From the NCBI GenBank assembly GCA_030826765.1, contig JAUUDM010000026.1, positions 52,687 through 116,686 on the forward strand: 64,000 nucleotides of DNA, read 5' to 3'. This DNA comes from Nautiliales bacterium. Lineage in GTDB: Bacteria; Campylobacterota; Campylobacteria; Campylobacterales; JAADDX01. This document shows positions 6,284-14,947 of the stretch, piece by piece; the first letter of the stretch is position 1, and the number at the start of each line of letters is the position of its first letter. Position numbers and translations under genes: made by a program. The notes below the pieces were generated by a model. That model did no database searches. It was given only the letters and a program-made list of their open reading frames with translations, and had not been told where the DNA came from.

Positions 6284-7018
6284 ATGATTTATATAATATC
6301 TAAACTTTTTACTTATCTAATTTTACCACCTGGAATATTTATAATTTTACTTATTTTAGCAGCGTTTAAAAAATTTAAATATCTGTTTTTAATATCTGGA
6401 TTATTTTTTTATTTTATTTCTACTAATTATGGTGCAAATTTACTTAATAAACCTTTAGAAAATAATTATTATAAAACTCAAAAAAATATTACTTGTAAAA
6501 GTGTAGTAGTTTTATCCGGTGGAAGCAATAAAAATGATACTATAAAAACTGCTCCTAATGCTTTCAAAAGATTAGTTTATGGCTTAGAAATAGCTTCGAT
6601 TCATCATTTACCTCTTATTTTTACTGGTAGCGGTATAGATAATTATACTGAAGCAGATGCAGCAAAAGAAGATATAAAAAATTTAAAAAAAGCCTTTCAT
6701 TTTAATATAAAAGTTTATTATGAAAACAAAGCCAAAAACACTGTAGAAAATGCAAAATTTACTAAAAAATTACTTAAAGAAAATAACTTATCAAATAATA
6801 TATGTTTAGTAACTTCAACTTATCATATGAAAAGAAGCGAAATAATATTTAAACATTTTGGTTTCAATGTAACACCTATGGCAACCGGATTTAATGTAAA
6901 AGAAAATGAAAATTTTTTTCTATTTCCAAAAGAAGAAAATTTTCATAAAAGCTATCAGACAATTCACGAATATTTTGGAATATTAAGTTTGCTTTTAAGA
7001 GGTTATAAAATTAATTAA
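6284..7018 (+). CDS. YdcF/ElyC-like DUF218 domain membrane protein
   Basis: Start trimmed to ATG 6284, since the longer ORF from 6194 overlaps the tRNA; two N-terminal TMs, VVVLSGGSN, LIFTGSG, NTVENAKFTKKLL, CLVTSTYHMKRSEIIF. Confidence 0.82.
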   Translation: MIYIISKLFTYLILPPGIFIILLILAAFKKFKYLFLISGLFFYFISTNYGANLLNKPLENNYYKTQKNITCKSVVVLSGGSNKNDTIKTAPNAFKRLVYGLEIASIHHLPLIFTGSGIDNYTEADAAKEDIKNLKKAFHFNIKVYYENKAKNTVENAKFTKKLLKENNLSNNICLVTSTYHMKRSEIIFKHFGFNVTPMATGFNVKENENFFLFPKEENFHKSYQTIHEYFGILSLLLRGYKIN

Positions 7019-8102
7019 AAACTATTCTAAATTCACTTCCTTTAGAATATTCACTAATAATTTCTAATTTAAAATTATGAAGTTTTATAATATTATTTAC
7101 AATAGAAAGTCCAAGTCCTAATGAATTATTCCAACTATTATTACTCACACGATAAAATTTATCCGTAATTTTATTTATATCAGTTTTTTTAATTCCTATT
7201 CCTTTATCAATTACACTTATATAATTTTTAGTAACTTTTACAATTATTTTATCTTTTGAATATTTGATAGCATTTTCTATTAAATTTATTAAAGCTACTT
7301 CAAAAAGCATTTTATCTATTAAAATTTTGTGATTTGTACCTTCTAAAATAATTTCTCTATTTGGATAGATATCTTTAATATCTTCTATAATTTCTTTACT
7401 AAATTCATATAAATCTACATTTACAAAATCTATTTTTTGGGAGTTTTCTTCAAGCTTTATAGATAGTCTTAAAGTATCTATTAAAGTTGTTAATTTATCT
7501 CCATTTCTTTTTATTTTCTCTAAAAATTTTTTTCTAATAGCAAGTGGAACATCATTTTTTAGTAAAGTCTCACTATAACCATTAATTACAGCTATTGGAT
7601 TTTTAAATTCGTGTGAAATTGCTGAAATTATTTCCTCTTTTTGTATATTTGATAATTCCAATTTTGCAATAGTAGATTTATATTCTCTTTCATGTCTTGC
7701 CAAAATAGTCGAAACTTTACTAAGCAAAGAAGTAATTTTTGAAAACTCTTTTGAAAAATTTGATTCTATCTTTTTTTCTTTTTTCTTTTTTGTAAGTTTA
7801 GTTAGAAATAGCAAAATTTTATTTACCTCATTTTCTAAATTATTATTTATTTTTCTTACAAAATAAAAAAGTATTACTATAAAAACAGCTAATATAAGAA
7901 TATTTATAATAATGAATTCAGTAAATTGTATTTGAAAATATTTTATTTTTTGATTTAGTTCCTGATTAGTTAAAGAAGACATATCTATATTTGAAAAATA
8001 TAGATATTTCATATAAAAATAACTTTCTATACCAAGTAGAATTAAAAGTGTTAAAAAAGCTATAATTAGCACTTTTAAATAAATATTAGAAAGTTTCAGC
8101 AA
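7011..8102 (-). CDS. sensor histidine kinase, PhoR-like by context
   Basis: SAISHEFKNPIAVINGYSETLL H-box, NLIENAIKYS N-box, DKGIGIKK, LGLGLSIV; next to OmpR-type regulator, phoU and pst. Confidence 0.88.
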   Translation of the reverse strand: MLKLSNIYLKVLIIAFLTLLILLGIESYFYMKYLYFSNIDMSSLTNQELNQKIKYFQIQFTEFIIINILILAVFIVILFYFVRKINNNLENEVNKILLFLTKLTKKKKEKKIESNFSKEFSKITSLLSKVSTILARHEREYKSTIAKLELSNIQKEEIISAISHEFKNPIAVINGYSETLLKNDVPLAIRKKFLEKIKRNGDKLTTLIDTLRLSIKLEENSQKIDFVNVDLYEFSKEIIEDIKDIYPNREIILEGTNHKILIDKMLFEVALINLIENAIKYSKDKIIVKVTKNYISVIDKGIGIKKTDINKITDKFYRVSNNSWNNSLGLGLSIVNNIIKLHNFKLEIISEYSKGSEFRIVFN

Positions 8103-8770
8103 AACATATACCCCTCACCTCTTATTGTCTTTATATACTCTTTTTCATTAAAAGGATCAATCTTTTCTTTCAATCTTTTAACAGCTACATTTACAGTTTT
8201 AACCTGTTTATCAAAACTATCTTTCCATACATTTTCAAGTAAAACTTCTCTTGTCATAACTTTATTTACATTTTTAAGAAATTCTAAAAGTAAATCTTTT
8301 TCTAAATGAGTTAAATCAATTGTATAACCATCAATTTTTACTTCTCTTGTATCAATATTAAAGATAATATCTCGATGTTTTAAAACTTTTATCTCTTTTT
8401 TAGTTCTTTTTAATACTGCTTTTACACGAGCTTTAAGCTCTTCTAAACTAAAAGGCTTGGTAATATAATCATCTCCCCCTCTTTCAAATCCTTGTAAAAT
8501 ATCTTCTTCTTTATCTTTGGCAGTTAAATAAATTACAGGTTGATTATAACCTTTGTCTCTTAAAGTCTGGATAAAAATACTACCCTCTGTCCCAGGTAAA
8601 TTCCTATCCATTATAATTAAATCTATCTCTTCTTTATCAAGAAGTTCTTTTACTCCATTTGTAGAACTAAAAGTAAAAACTTTATAATCATTTAAAGTAA
8701 ATTGTATTAAATCTAAAATATCTTCTTCATCCTCGACAACTACAATTTTATGCATTATGTAAGTTTCCAC
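8096..8770 (-). CDS. OmpR-family response regulator, PhoB-like by context (start probably MHKIVVVEDE at 8755)
   Basis: VVVEDEEDILDLI, DRNLPGTEG, YLTAKD, winged-helix C-terminus VNVAVKRLKEKIDPFNEKEYIKTIRGEGYMF. Confidence 0.9.
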   Translation of the reverse strand: METYIMHKIVVVEDEEDILDLIQFTLNDYKVFTFSSTNGVKELLDKEEIDLIIMDRNLPGTEGSIFIQTLRDKGYNQPVIYLTAKDKEEDILQGFERGGDDYITKPFSLEELKARVKAVLKRTKKEIKVLKHRDIIFNIDTREVKIDGYTIDLTHLEKDLLLEFLKNVNKVMTREVLLENVWKDSFDKQVKTVNVAVKRLKEKIDPFNEKEYIKTIRGEGYMFC

Positions 8771-9398
8771 CCAATTTATAAAACATTAGTAAATTTGCAA
8801 CTTCAATAGTTCTATCTGCAATTTTTTCCATTTTTCTAACTGTTTTTAGAACTTTATTTAAAGTTTCATAATTACCTTCATAATTTTTAAGAAGTTCTTC
8901 TTCAATAGCATCATATAAATCATCTGTTTTATGCTCTTCCACTACAATTTCTTCAAATTTATCTTTCAATTCATCAACATCTTCAATATCCAACATTTCA
9001 TAAGTAAGTTTTAAACATTTGAATGTAGCTTCTTCTAATGGAACCAAATATTGAGTAATTAAACTTTTTTCCACTAAATCACATACAGCCAAAAAACCTT
9101 TTATAAAACTTCTTGTATTTGTAGAAGCTCTTGAAAGCTCACCTGTAATTTTAAGATAAGCTACCAACCTTCTTAAATCTCTTGCTTCTGGTGTATATAA
9201 TGCTAAAATTTTAATTATTAGATTATCAATTTCATCAGCTTTTACAGTAGAATTATTTACATATTTTTTAGCATCATCAAACTCACTTGTATCACAATCT
9301 TCTAATGCTTTTAAAACAATTTCATTTGCTTTTACTAAATTATTATGAAATTCTCTAACTTCATCTTTTACTTCTTTTAAATATTTTTCTCCTAACAT
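8748..9398 (-). CDS. phoU: phosphate signaling complex protein PhoU
   Basis: PhoU helical-repeat pattern (VNNSTVKADEIDNLIIKILALYTPEARDLRRLVAYLKITGELSR), next to pstB. Confidence 0.9.
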   Translation of the reverse strand: MLGEKYLKEVKDEVREFHNNLVKANEIVLKALEDCDTSEFDDAKKYVNNSTVKADEIDNLIIKILALYTPEARDLRRLVAYLKITGELSRASTNTRSFIKGFLAVCDLVEKSLITQYLVPLEEATFKCLKLTYEMLDIEDVDELKDKFEEIVVEEHKTDDLYDAIEEELLKNYEGNYETLNKVLKTVRKMEKIADRTIEVANLLMFYKLGGNLHNA

Positions 9399-9409: not shown

Positions 9410-10195
9410 TTATCCAAATCTACCAGTGATATAATCTTCTGTCTGTTTCTCTTTTGGATTTAAGAAAATTTGCTCAGTTTCACCAAATTCAACTAAATCT
9501 CCTAAATACATAAATGCTGTATAATCACTAATTCTACTCGCTTGTTGCATATTATGAGTTACAATTGCAATACTTACTCTCTCTTTTAATTCAACTACAA
9601 GTTCTTCAATAGCTGCTGTTGAGATTGGGTCCAATGCACTTGTAGGTTCATCAAAAAGTAATACTTCAGGCTCAACTGCAATAGCTCTTGCAATACAAAG
9701 TCTTTGTTGTTGCCCTCCACTCATTCCAAGTGCAGATTCTTTAAGTCTATCTTTTACCTCACTCCACAAAGCTGCTCCTTGAAGGGCTTTTTCTACTCTT
9801 CCTTCAATTTCACTTTTACTTTTTATTCCTGCAAATTTAAGTCCATAAGCAACATTATCAAAAATACTCATAGGAAACGGAGTTGGTTTTTGGAAAATCA
9901 TCCCAACTCTTTGTCTCAGCTCAATTAATTTATTTTCTTTTTTGTATTCCAAAATATTTTCCATTTTATCATTAATTTTTAATAAAATTTCTCCATCATA
10001 TTTATTCCCAGGATAAAGGTCTTGAATTCTATTTAAACTTCTTAACAGAGTCGATTTTCCACATCCACTTGGTCCAATTAATGCCGTAATTTTATTTTCT
10101 TCAATATTCAAATTGATGTTTTTTAAAGTTGGCTTAGGTGCTTTTGGATAAGTAAAATAAAAATCTTTTATTTCCATTACATTTTTCATCATCAT
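9410..10195 (-). CDS. pstB: phosphate ABC transporter ATP-binding protein
   Basis: [72 protein letters not shown]. Confidence 0.97.
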
Positions 10196-10198
10196 TCC

Positions 10199-11005
10199 TT
10201 ATTTTTTTTCTCTAATAACATATCTACCAAGTAAATTTATAAGTAAAACAAAAACAGTTAAAATAAATGCCCCAGCCCACGCAATTTTTACTAAATTTTC
10301 ATCTGGCATAGTAGCAAGGTTATAAATAGCAACTGTTAAACTTGGAAACTCTTGATTCATATTCATTGTAAAAAATTGACTGTTTCCACTTGTAAAAAGT
10401 AGTGGAGCTGTTTCTCCTGCAATTCTTGCAAATGCAAGTAAAATACCAGTTGTTATTCCAACTTTTGCTGCTTTTATAATTATATCAAAAATAACTTTGT
10501 ATTTCGGAGCTCCCAAAGCAATTCCTGCCTCTCTAAGCTCTTTTGGCACGAGTCCTAGCATATCATCAGTCGTTCGAACTACAATTGGAATCATCATAAT
10601 TGCTAATGCAATACTCCCAGCCCATCCATTTGCATGACCTACCGGATTTACCACAATAGCATAAACAAAAACCCCTATTACGATAGAAGGTGCACTCATC
10701 ATTACATCACTTAAATTTCTGATAAATTCGGCATATTTACTCCCATATGAGTATTCTTGAAGATAAATTCCTGCAATCATTCCGATAGGAACACCAATTA
10801 CAACTGCTGTTAAAGCCAGCATAAATTGACCTATTAGAAGATTTCTAAGTCCGTTATTAACCAAATCATTACTGAATATATGCCAATCAATTGCTCCTAC
10901 ACCTTTAATTGTAAGGTCAATCAATATCCAAAAAAGAAAAACCAAACCAATTAATGCCGCAAGGATAGATAATCCTAAAACTATTTTATTTATTAAAAAT
11001 CTCAT
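10199..11005 (-). CDS. pstA: phosphate ABC transporter permease
   Basis: multi-TM permease, EAGIALGAPKYKVIFDIIIKAA EAA loop, pst operon. Confidence 0.95.
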   Translation of the reverse strand: MRFLINKIVLGLSILAALIGLVFLFWILIDLTIKGVGAIDWHIFSNDLVNNGLRNLLIGQFMLALTAVVIGVPIGMIAGIYLQEYSYGSKYAEFIRNLSDVMMSAPSIVIGVFVYAIVVNPVGHANGWAGSIALAIMMIPIVVRTTDDMLGLVPKELREAGIALGAPKYKVIFDIIIKAAKVGITTGILLAFARIAGETAPLLFTSGNSQFFTMNMNQEFPSLTVAIYNLATMPDENLVKIAWAGAFILTVFVLLINLLGRYVIREKK

Positions 11006-12008
11006 TTTTATTCCTTAAAAAGTAGAATTTAGCAAAACTGATAACTGCAAAACTAAGCACAAACAGAACTACTGCCAAATAGAAAAGTGCTGACATACTC
11101 ATACCACTACTTTCTGCAAAAGAGTTTGCCAAAACTACCGGAATTGAAACTGTTGGGTCTGTAACAACTTTTGGGAATGTAAAAACTCCACCAATTACAA
11201 AAGCAACTGCCATTGTTTCACCTAAAGCTCTACCAAGTGCTAAAATAATACTTCCTATAATCCCCTGTTTTGCATAAGGAAAAATTACATCTTTTATTAC
11301 TTCAAATTTAGTTGCCCCCATGGCATATGCTGATTCTTTCAATACAGCCGGAGTTGTATTCATAGAATCTCTTGTAAGAGATGCCATAAAAGGAATAATC
11401 ATAACACCAAGCACTAATCCAGCGACCAAAAGCGAAACTGACTGCCCACCTACATATTTACTAACAAGTGGCCCAAAATAAAAAAGCCCCCACATACCAT
11501 AGATAATACTCGGAATCGCTGCTAATAGTTCAATAGCAACTCCTACCGGTTTTGCCAAAAGTGGATGAGCAATTTCACTCAAAAATACAGCAATACCCAT
11601 AGCAATAGGAACAGCAAAAAGCATAGCTAAAATAGTAGAAAGAACAGTCCCGACAATTGGCACAAACCCACCATATACCTCTTTTGTATTTGCCGTGCTT
11701 CCATCCTCATCATCTGTTAATAGACTATCACTGTTATCACTACTATCATCTAACAATAAATCTTCTGTTTGTAAATTATCGTTTTGTGCCATTTCATCTG
11801 TTACCTGTTCAGTTGTAGCAACTTGTTTATCTACTTTTGGAGTATCCACTTGAACTGTTACACCCCATCTTGGGTCTGTTAAAAATTTAAGTCCAAACTC
11901 ATCAATTGCTGGTTTTGCATAAATAAACAACACTACAAAAATAGAAGTCAAAAGTAAAAGAATCAATGTTGCACTTGTTAAAGAGAGTTTTTTGAAAACT
12001 GATTCCAT
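10986..12008 (-). CDS. pstC: phosphate ABC transporter permease with acidic insertion in first periplasmic loop
   Basis: KESAYAMGATKFEVIKDVIFPYAKQGI EAA loop, ALGRALGETMAVAFVIG, pst operon. Confidence 0.95.
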   Translation of the reverse strand: MESVFKKLSLTSATLILLLLTSIFVVLFIYAKPAIDEFGLKFLTDPRWGVTVQVDTPKVDKQVATTEQVTDEMAQNDNLQTEDLLLDDSSDNSDSLLTDDEDGSTANTKEVYGGFVPIVGTVLSTILAMLFAVPIAMGIAVFLSEIAHPLLAKPVGVAIELLAAIPSIIYGMWGLFYFGPLVSKYVGGQSVSLLVAGLVLGVMIIPFMASLTRDSMNTTPAVLKESAYAMGATKFEVIKDVIFPYAKQGIIGSIILALGRALGETMAVAFVIGGVFTFPKVVTDPTVSIPVVLANSFAESSGMSMSALFYLAVVLFVLSFAVISFAKFYFLRNKNEIFNK

Positions 12009-12034: not shown

Positions 12035-12070
12035 ATTATACAAAAAGTTTGATTACAAAATGGTTACAAA
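12035..12070 (-). promoter_or_regulatory. putative PHO-box-like promoter of pstC
   Basis: Direct repeat TTTGTAA-CCAT-TTTGTAA on minus strand (11-bp period, 12053-12070) followed 12 nt later by TATAAT (12035-12040). Confidence 0.7.
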
Positions 12071-12090
12071 AAGAGAAAATCTTTTTGTAA
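12064..12090 (-). terminator. pstS-pstC intergenic hairpin (terminator or attenuator candidate)
   Basis: Perfect 10-bp inverted repeat TTACAAAAAG (12064-12073) / CTTTTTGTAA (12081-12090), 7-nt loop, just downstream of the pstS stop. Confidence 0.6.
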
Positions 12091-12096
12091 TTTTTG

Positions 12097-13098
12097 TTAT
12101 TTTGCAGGAGAAATTCCTTTTTTAGCCCAGTATGCTCTGATTTGAGCTTTTACAGATGCTGGAAGTGGAATATATCCAAGTTTACTTGCACCTTCATCGT
12201 GTTTAAATCCATAGTTAAAAAATTCAGTTACTCTTTTTGCAACTTTTTTATTATCATAATGAACTAAATCAAATGTAGCTGCGATAATTGGGTATCCATG
12301 TTTTGGATAAGCAACCATTCCATAAAAATCTCTTGCTGGTTTTAATCCTGCATAAGCCGCACCTTTTGCAAATTCAGCCGGAGTTGGATCTATAAATTTA
12401 TGGTCTCTTCCTTCAACTGAAGCTAAACTTAATTTGTTTGCTACTGCATCAGCATAATCAACATAACCGATTGAATAACTGTTTTTCTTAATTTGAGCAC
12501 TTACACCGAAGTTACCTTTTCCGGCACTTCCTCTTCCTTGTAAGTCAGTTGGCCAAGTAAGAGCTTTTTTAGCACCAAAATGACTTCTCCATACTGAACT
12601 CATTTTACTTAGGTAGTATGTAAAGTTATAAGTTGTTCCTGATTTATCACTTCTATGAACAAAGAATATTTTTTTGTGAGGTAAATTAACACCTGGGTTA
12701 GATGCTTTTAATACTGGATTATCCCAATATACGATTGTTCCAAGAGCGATTCCTGAAAGTGCAGCTTCACTTAATTTTAATTTATTTACACCCGGCACAT
12801 TATAAGCCATTGTAATTCCACCAATAACTGTTGGGAATTGTGCTAAATGATGATTTTTTAAATCACTTGGTGATAAAGGTTTATCACTTCCACCAAAATC
12901 AACATGTCTTGCTTTAATTTCTTTAAGACCTGTTCCTGAACCTGTTCCTGTATAGTTTACTTGGTTTCCTGTTTGACTGTAAAAACCTGAAATCCAAGCT
13001 TTATTTACTGGTAATTGAAAAGACGAACCTGTTCCGTTGATTGTCCATGCGAATGAACTAACTGCTGCTAAACTTAATCCTGCGATTATTTTTTTCAT
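12097..13098 (-). CDS. pstS: phosphate ABC transporter substrate-binding protein
   Basis: signal peptide; INGTGSSFQLPV, YTGTGSGTGLKEI, DFGGSDKPLS, VHRSDKSGTTYNFTYYL, GVSAQIKKNSYSIGYVDYA. Confidence 0.96.
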   Translation of the reverse strand: MKKIIAGLSLAAVSSFAWTINGTGSSFQLPVNKAWISGFYSQTGNQVNYTGTGSGTGLKEIKARHVDFGGSDKPLSPSDLKNHHLAQFPTVIGGITMAYNVPGVNKLKLSEAALSGIALGTIVYWDNPVLKASNPGVNLPHKKIFFVHRSDKSGTTYNFTYYLSKMSSVWRSHFGAKKALTWPTDLQGRGSAGKGNFGVSAQIKKNSYSIGYVDYADAVANKLSLASVEGRDHKFIDPTPAEFAKGAAYAGLKPARDFYGMVAYPKHGYPIIAATFDLVHYDNKKVAKRVTEFFNYGFKHDEGASKLGYIPLPASVKAQIRAYWAKKGISPAK

Positions 13099-13128
13099 TT
13101 TTAATCCTTTTTTTAATTTATTGATGAA

Positions 13129-13163
13129 ATTATAAAAATAAATAATTACAAAATGGTAACAAA
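13129..13163 (-). promoter_or_regulatory. putative PHO-box-like promoter of pstS
   Basis: TTTGTTA-CCAT-TTTGTAA on minus strand (13146-13163) followed 11 nt later by TATAAT (13129-13134). Confidence 0.7.
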
Positions 13164-13189
13164 TAAAAAATTTAGAAAAAAAAGATGCT

Positions 13190-14812
13190 TTATAACATCA
13201 TCCCTTTTATAACAAAGAAAATCAAAGCAGAGAAAAATCCAGCAACAGGAACTGTAATAACCCACGCGGCTACTATTTTTTTAAGCATATCTCTTTTTAC
13301 ATATTCAGTTTTAATCTCTTTTTTAAGAATTTTTCTAAGTCTTTTAATTATTTTTTCTTGTGATTCAATATGCTCATATAATGAAACAATTTTTTCATAA
13401 TCTTCTTTTGTTTTATCTGATTTTTTTTGAATATTATCAAGTTCTATAACCATAATTTTCAGATGTTCTTCTTCTTTTATAACTTCTTTTTTTATTTCTT
13501 CTTCTTTGTTTACTTCTAACTTCATAAATTCTCTTAAAAACCCTACACCAAACACTGCACCAACTGCAATATGAGTTGAACTTACTGGAAGCCCAAGTTG
13601 TGAAGCAATAATAACAGTAATAGCAGCTGCAAGGGCAATAGCAAATGCTCTTATTTGATCAAGTTCTGTGATTTCACTACCAACTGTTTTGATAAGTTTT
13701 GGTCCATAAAGTGCAAGTCCGACAGAAATACCAATACCTCCAATTGCCATAACCCAAATAGGAATACCAGATTTAGCACTAATTCCACCATTCATAACCG
13801 CATCATTAATTGCTGATAATGGACCAACTGCATTAGCAACATCATTTGCACCATGAGCGAAACTAAGCAATGCTGCTGCAAAAATTAAAGGAATTGTAAA
13901 TAAAGCGTTAATTGAAACTCTTGAATTATCTAAATTATTAGCTTTCTTTGTGATATTTGATTTAAGTAAAACAAAAGTAATAATTGCAACTATAATTCCA
14001 AATATAGAAGCTATTTCAAATGTAGGAGCTTTAGTTTGAGGTAAAAAAGTTAAAAAGTTAGTAACATCTATCCATATATGTTTAAAACCTTTAAGTGTAA
14101 TATAAGTAGTAAAAGCCCACGCCATAATTGCTACAAAAAGTGGTACCCATTTTTTAGCTGCAGCTACTTTATCATCTTTAAAAACAATCGTTTTTTTAAT
14201 AGTAAATAAAAATCCTGCTGCAATTAATCCACCAAAAATTGGTGAAATCACCCAAGAAGCTACAATTTTACCCATTGTAACCCAATGAACTATTCCAAAT
14301 CCTCCAGCAGCAATTCCAGCTCCCATTACACCACCAACAATTGAATGAGTTGTAGAAACAGGTGCTTTGAAATAAGTAGCTAAATTAAGCCACAATGCCG
14401 CCGCTAAAAGTGCCGACATCATAGCCCAAATAAAAACATCAACATTTTCAAATGTATTTAAATCAATAATACCTTTTCTAATAGTATTCGTCACATCTGC
14501 CCCAGCAATCAAAGCTCCACTTGCTTCAAAAATAGCTGCTATCAAAATAGCACCACCCATCGTCAAAGCTTTACTCCCAACAGCAGGTCCTACATTGTTA
14601 GCAACATCATTTGCCCCAATATTCATAGCCATATATGCACCAAAAACTGTAGCAATGGCTAAAAACATACTATTACTCATTCCCCCTTTTGTAGAAAGAG
14701 TATAAATCATTACTCCTACTACAAATAAAATACCAATCCCAAGTCTCATAAAATCAATACCCGAAGATTTAAGAGCTGCTTTTTCAAGCTTTTTCATAGT
14801 ATTTACTTCCAT
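13190..14812 (-). CDS. inorganic phosphate transporter, PitA/PHO-4 family (start may be MKKLEK at 14797)
   Basis: duplicated GANDVANNVGPAVGSKAL / GANDVANAVGPLSAI and KAPVSTTHSIVGGVMGAG / LPVSSTHIAVGAVFGVG. Confidence 0.93.
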   Translation of the reverse strand: MEVNTMKKLEKAALKSSGIDFMRLGIGILFVVGVMIYTLSTKGGMSNSMFLAIATVFGAYMAMNIGANDVANNVGPAVGSKALTMGGAILIAAIFEASGALIAGADVTNTIRKGIIDLNTFENVDVFIWAMMSALLAAALWLNLATYFKAPVSTTHSIVGGVMGAGIAAGGFGIVHWVTMGKIVASWVISPIFGGLIAAGFLFTIKKTIVFKDDKVAAAKKWVPLFVAIMAWAFTTYITLKGFKHIWIDVTNFLTFLPQTKAPTFEIASIFGIIVAIITFVLLKSNITKKANNLDNSRVSINALFTIPLIFAAALLSFAHGANDVANAVGPLSAINDAVMNGGISAKSGIPIWVMAIGGIGISVGLALYGPKLIKTVGSEITELDQIRAFAIALAAAITVIIASQLGLPVSSTHIAVGAVFGVGFLREFMKLEVNKEEEIKKEVIKEEEHLKIMVIELDNIQKKSDKTKEDYEKIVSLYEHIESQEKIIKRLRKILKKEIKTEYVKRDMLKKIVAAWVITVPVAGFFSALIFFVIKGMML

Positions 14813-14835
14813 ACATTTCCTTTATCAAAAAATAA

Positions 14836-14853
14836 TTACAAAATAGTAACAAA
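14836..14853 (-). promoter_or_regulatory. putative PHO-box-like direct repeat upstream of pit
   Basis: TTTGTTA-CTAT-TTTGTAA on minus strand, same 11-bp period as the pstS and pstC sites. Confidence 0.6.
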
Positions 14854-14947
14854 AAATTTCATAAAAATCACCAAAAAAATAAAAGAATTACACAATTAGT
14901 CTAAATTCTAAATTTTTGATACAATTTCTTTTAAAAAAAGGTATTTG

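Follow-up and report, generated by a model that had tools for sequence, protein, structure and literature searches.

Variant PHO boxes with fixed promoter spacing at the pst genes of a Nautiliales bacterium, and a box position at pit that points to repression

Introduction

Three similar direct repeats precede pit, pstS and pstC in a Nautiliales bacterium. Are they the binding sites of a single phosphate regulator and, if so, do they act in the same sense on the two transporters, Pst and Pit? We addressed this question in a stretch of 64,000 nucleotides of its DNA (hereafter the window), for which a sequence-only reading had proposed PHO boxes of a co-encoded PhoB-like regulator and had placed Pit in the same regulon. 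Among the papers searched, those on phosphate control in this group all concern C. jejuni, where PhosR controls pst (PMC3197622, PMC9449129), and in the literature searched we found no published work on this box in the group.

Results

The locus lies entirely on the minus strand and its genes had been correctly called. The phosphate transporter gene pit (13190-14812; PHO4 family, Pfam PF01384, 379 bits) is followed by the genes of the phosphate-binding protein PstS (12097-13098), the permeases PstC (10986-12008) and PstA (10199-11005) and the ATPase PstB (9410-10195), which score above the cut-offs of NCBIfam TIGR00975, TIGR02138, TIGR00974 and TIGR00972, respectively. Then come a phoU-like gene (8748-9398; Pfam PhoU), an OmpR-type response regulator of the PhoB/PhosR type (8096-8770; Pfam Response_reg and Trans_reg_C) and a histidine kinase that is its likely partner (7011-8102; Pfam HisKA and HATPase_c), so that regulator and kinase are both encoded within the pst operon. 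With its listed GTG start the regulator gene overlaps phoU at 8748-8770; an internal ATG, giving MHKIVVVEDEED, is the likelier start.

Upstream of pstC, pstS and pit, three minus-strand sites match TTTGTWACYATTTTGTAA without a single mismatch, at 12053-12070, 13146-13163 and 14836-14853, precisely where the repeats had been reported. The half-site proposed for them, TTTGTWA, was off by one base and had to be dropped for TTGTWAY, the register conserved in the footprinting described below. The box is then TTGTWAY-N4-TTGTAAY, i.e. two head-to-tail 7-bp half-sites with a period of 11 bp, and it occurs as the exact matches TTGTAACCATTTTGTAAT before pstC (12052-12069), TTGTTACCATTTTGTAAT before pstS (13145-13162) and TTGTTACTATTTTGTAAT before pit (14835-14852). 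A -10 hexamer TATAAT stands 10 nt past the box of pstS (13129-13134) and 11 nt past that of pstC (12035-12040); counted from the TTTGTAA of the former register these distances are the 11 and 12 nt originally given.

Exact matches to TTTGTWACYATTTTGTAA number three in the 1.51-Mb genome (G000), all of them at pst and pit and within 2.8 kb. Tolerating one mismatch brings the number to seven, and the reversed pattern gives none; at three mismatches there is no excess (116 vs 126 for the reversed pattern). Hence, only near-exact copies carry signal. We also checked whether the motif is equally frequent elsewhere, and it is not. When the surroundings of the matches listed outside the locus were read, two sites with one mismatch were set aside since they fall within genes (L004, L007), and two intergenic sites since their spacing to a -10 is wrong, one upstream of a DctP-type binding protein (L005, 1500-1517) and one upstream of a Peripla_BP_6 protein (L006, 1501-1519). 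Another intergenic box-like site, before a possible outer-membrane gene (L265), has TATAAT 16 nt away and is better read as an ordinary -35.

Conservation was assessed in a sample of 60 genomes from the order. A PstS match was found in 34, of which 30 were fetched and scanned over the 300 bp upstream of the gene. The consensus TTGTAAYCNNWTTGTAAY, which was derived from the very matches scored so that part of the fit arises by construction, occurs with at most three mismatches upstream of 28 of the 30 pstS genes, against a mean of 0.92 and a maximum of 4 in first-order Markov shuffles, and with at most one mismatch upstream of 15 (shuffle mean 0.01). The pattern of the sequence-only reading, fixed in advance, was recovered upstream of 15/30 pstS genes at up to three mismatches (shuffle mean 0.18, maximum 2). 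Positions G3, T4, A6, G14 and T15 are invariant over the 28 boxes, leaving out the doubtful box of G019. The box is thus conserved order-wide at pstS, and the expected conservation upstream of orthologous pst genes was observed and extends to some pit genes. G012, a genome of the same family as the window, has pstS and lacks such a box.

The closest PstS relatives, in family f15, carry a looser form of the box, which reads TTGTTAYC before pstS in G047 and G032 (L182, L183). In these two genomes pit is codirectional with pstB and follows it at a distance of 54-85 nt, an arrangement resembling an extended pst operon, which suggests co-induction there. Across the other genomes, boxes precede pstS, pstC (in other families too), pit, putative outer-membrane genes and a second type of pstS. 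In other families, boxes of the same form stand ahead of genes for porin-like or outer-membrane proteins, of a second-type pstS and of a gene for an extracellular solute-binding protein (L046, L047, L191, L199, L041), and these likely make up a wider regulon.

The boxes are also locked to the promoter. A strong -10 is found exactly 10 nt after 25 of the 29 pstS boxes and after six of seven further activator boxes (six of pstC and one of second-type pstS), any other offset being seen at most twice in the pstS set and once in the second. None of the 11 pit boxes has a strong -10 at 10 nt. The boxes of pstS and pstC stand in place of the -35, about 10 nt before the -10, and that of pit does not.

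What then does the box do at pit? In the window 22 nt lie between its end and the start codon (14812), and this gap contains AAAGGA (14818-14823), the likely ribosome-binding site of pit. We found no -10 downstream of this box at activator spacing; the hexamer upstream is weak and no -10 of its own is clear for pit. Few pit genes in the 60 genomes carry the box and most are without it. The short-gap layout recurs in one other family, f4, mostly in genomes with Pst: in eight f4 genomes 20-23 nt separate the box from the start codon and contain the ribosome site, and the other pit boxes of the family lie at 44-47 nt (two) and 178 nt (one) from the start. The short-gap f4 genomes have no -10 at +10, and a hexamer resembling TTTAAT stands upstream of the box, its end 7 nt away. 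Throughout the short-gap group the ribosome site occupies the place where an activator-type start would fall. This geometry would put the site over the transcription start, so that repression is likelier than activation, and from the position of the box we lean towards repression of pit. The box points towards pit, which makes an action on the divergent gene at 14945 less likely.

The presence of Pit in the regulon holds as a predicted binding site, because a second family also has this box ahead of pit. Its further implication, that all three boxes activate and that low phosphate induces both transporters together, is possible but in our opinion doubtful. The match at the pit box is perfect, pit follows pstB directly in the two f15 genomes, and it stands behind an activator-type box in G003, G079, G104, G150 and G039. 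But a -10 at activator spacing in the window would start transcription roughly at the pit ATG, so that the transcript would lack the ribosome site, and neither the window nor the eight short-gap f4 genomes have a -10 at +10. The position of the box thus argues here against co-activation with pst.

Repression where the gap is short and activation elsewhere might be two states of one site. One might speculate that a single PHO box, slid along the pit promoter, flips its sign with the fate of Pst, an idea that we hold only tentatively. Where Pst is present the box would sit on the pit start and repress; where Pst was lost it would sit 10 nt before a -10 and activate pit, either alone or through an upstream outer-membrane gene. 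With Pst status assigned by PstS or PstB searches, Pst coincides with a short-gap box in G023, G172, G053, G183, G194, G204, G214 and the window, and with an activator-type pit box in G039. No Pst was found in G104 (TACTAT at +10) and G150 (TACCAT at +10), which have activator-type pit boxes with -10 scores below the threshold applied to pstS, nor in G003 and G079 (TACAAT at +10), where the activator-type box would act via the upstream gene. G116 is a counter-example, with no Pst found (the genome is 88% complete) and a short gap. The genomes fit the switch 8 to 1 and 4 to 1 (Fisher p 0.023, uncorrected for relatedness or post-hoc categories), a count made on related and partly incomplete genomes with categories drawn after the data were seen. 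It excludes G092 and G139, which have Pst and no box at pit; G128, which has neither Pst nor a clear box; G161 and G066, whose pit is absent or incomplete; and the families beyond f4 and that of the window. This count is a lead rather than a result.

The regulator encoded at 8096-8770 has orthologues (E up to 1e-35) in 46 of the 60 genomes, many in or beside the pst locus. In G003 and G079 regulator and kinase are divergent from the putative outer-membrane gene, which is followed by pit; in G003 this gene has no Pfam match. The best NCBIfam family of the regulator is TIGR02154 (PhoB equivalog), at 170 bits for a cut-off of 296, and it is therefore not filed as PhoB proper. Its receiver and winged-helix output domains and its linkage to pst are those of a PhoB/PhosR-like member of the OmpR family. 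Taken as a whole, the interpretation of the three sites as PHO boxes for the co-encoded PhoB/PhosR-type regulator appears very probable: order-wide footprinting and the locked -10 spacing strongly support the boxes, and the 8096 product is the likely binder. That a different OmpR-family regulator binds them instead seems improbable. Members of this family are similar and the PhoB score of the 8096 product falls below the cut-off, but this regulator lies in the same operon, its orthologues accompany pst or pit throughout the order, and in genomes identified as Campylobacter both regulator and site differ. Chance repeats in AT-rich DNA, for which the lack of excess over the reversed pattern at three mismatches would speak, are hardly credible given that all exact matches of the genome, three in number, fall within 2.8 kb, that the -10 spacing is fixed and that the box is conserved order-wide; the footprinting already contradicts them.

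Discussion

The boxes, their conservation, their spacing and the order of the genes can be read directly from the DNA. From these we infer the identity of the binding protein, the activation of pst at low phosphate and the sense in which the pit box acts. Each box would be bound by the phosphorylated 8096-8770 regulator. The boxes of pstS and pstC replace the -35, 10-11 nt upstream of TATAAT, so that the bound regulator would recruit RNA polymerase when phosphate is low, and the run pstS-C-A-B-phoU-regulator-kinase would then be induced, its own regulator included. At pit the box lies over the predicted transcription start with no -10 downstream; the bound regulator would most likely block the polymerase, so that Pit would be produced under ample phosphate and switched off upon induction of Pst.

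The pst boxes represent a variant form of sites that are commonplace in phosphate regulons. They have in common with the E. coli PHO box and the PhoB-dependent pstS promoter the head-to-tail 7-bp half-sites, the 4-bp spacer and the 11-bp period, a TGT + A core (invariant over the 28 boxes of the order except for single columns), pst as a target, and a -10 exactly 10 nt after the box at pstS. The E. coli half-site is CTGTCAY instead of TTGTWAY. The half-site had been said to differ from that of E. coli, which is true only in part: once the register is corrected, TTGTAAY and CTGTCAY share 5/7 positions. The regulator of the window is 34% identical to E. coli PhoB and, unlike in E. coli, regulator and kinase lie in the pst operon and a box is found at pit.

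The PhosS/PhosR system of C. jejuni likewise uses an OmpR-type regulator of pstSCAB (PMC3197622, PMC9449129). We recognised Campylobacter genomes by published C. jejuni primer sequences (PMC6250842): the pstS primer is exact in G352 and G340 (one genus), and both phosR primers are exact in G340. All ten pstS promoters read in this Campylobacter-identified group (L200-L209) carry ATGTWTCYAAAATGTTTC, with TTGTATC as the first half in one, and a TAAAYT-like hexamer follows at exactly 10 nt. The half-site there is ATGTWTC, in contrast to TTGTWAY here, while the skeleton, the 11-bp period and the 10-nt spacing are kept. The regulators of this group are 40-46% identical to that of the window (42% for G340), with a recognition helix KTINIALTRLR or close to it where the window has KTVNVAVKRLK. 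Unlike in the window, the kinase-regulator pair of G340 is away from pst.

PhoB activates or represses according to position (PMC10294691), and in S. meliloti pit is controlled by phosphate stress in the sense opposite to Pst (PMC8829014), the same logic as predicted here. Naturally, S. meliloti belongs to an unrelated lineage, and the sign predicted at the window pit is read from the position of the box.

What our analysis adds is a consensus that holds across the order, a fixed promoter spacing, the altered site of Campylobacter-identified genomes and the position of the box at pit, together with a possible switch of sign at pit that would also be new. An order-wide phosphate box with fixed promoter spacing is testable, and the comparison with Campylobacter suggests a natural case in which site and recognition helix changed between that group and the lineage of the window. 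If our interpretation of pit is true, the position of one operator would decide whether a second phosphate transporter replaces the first or backs it up.
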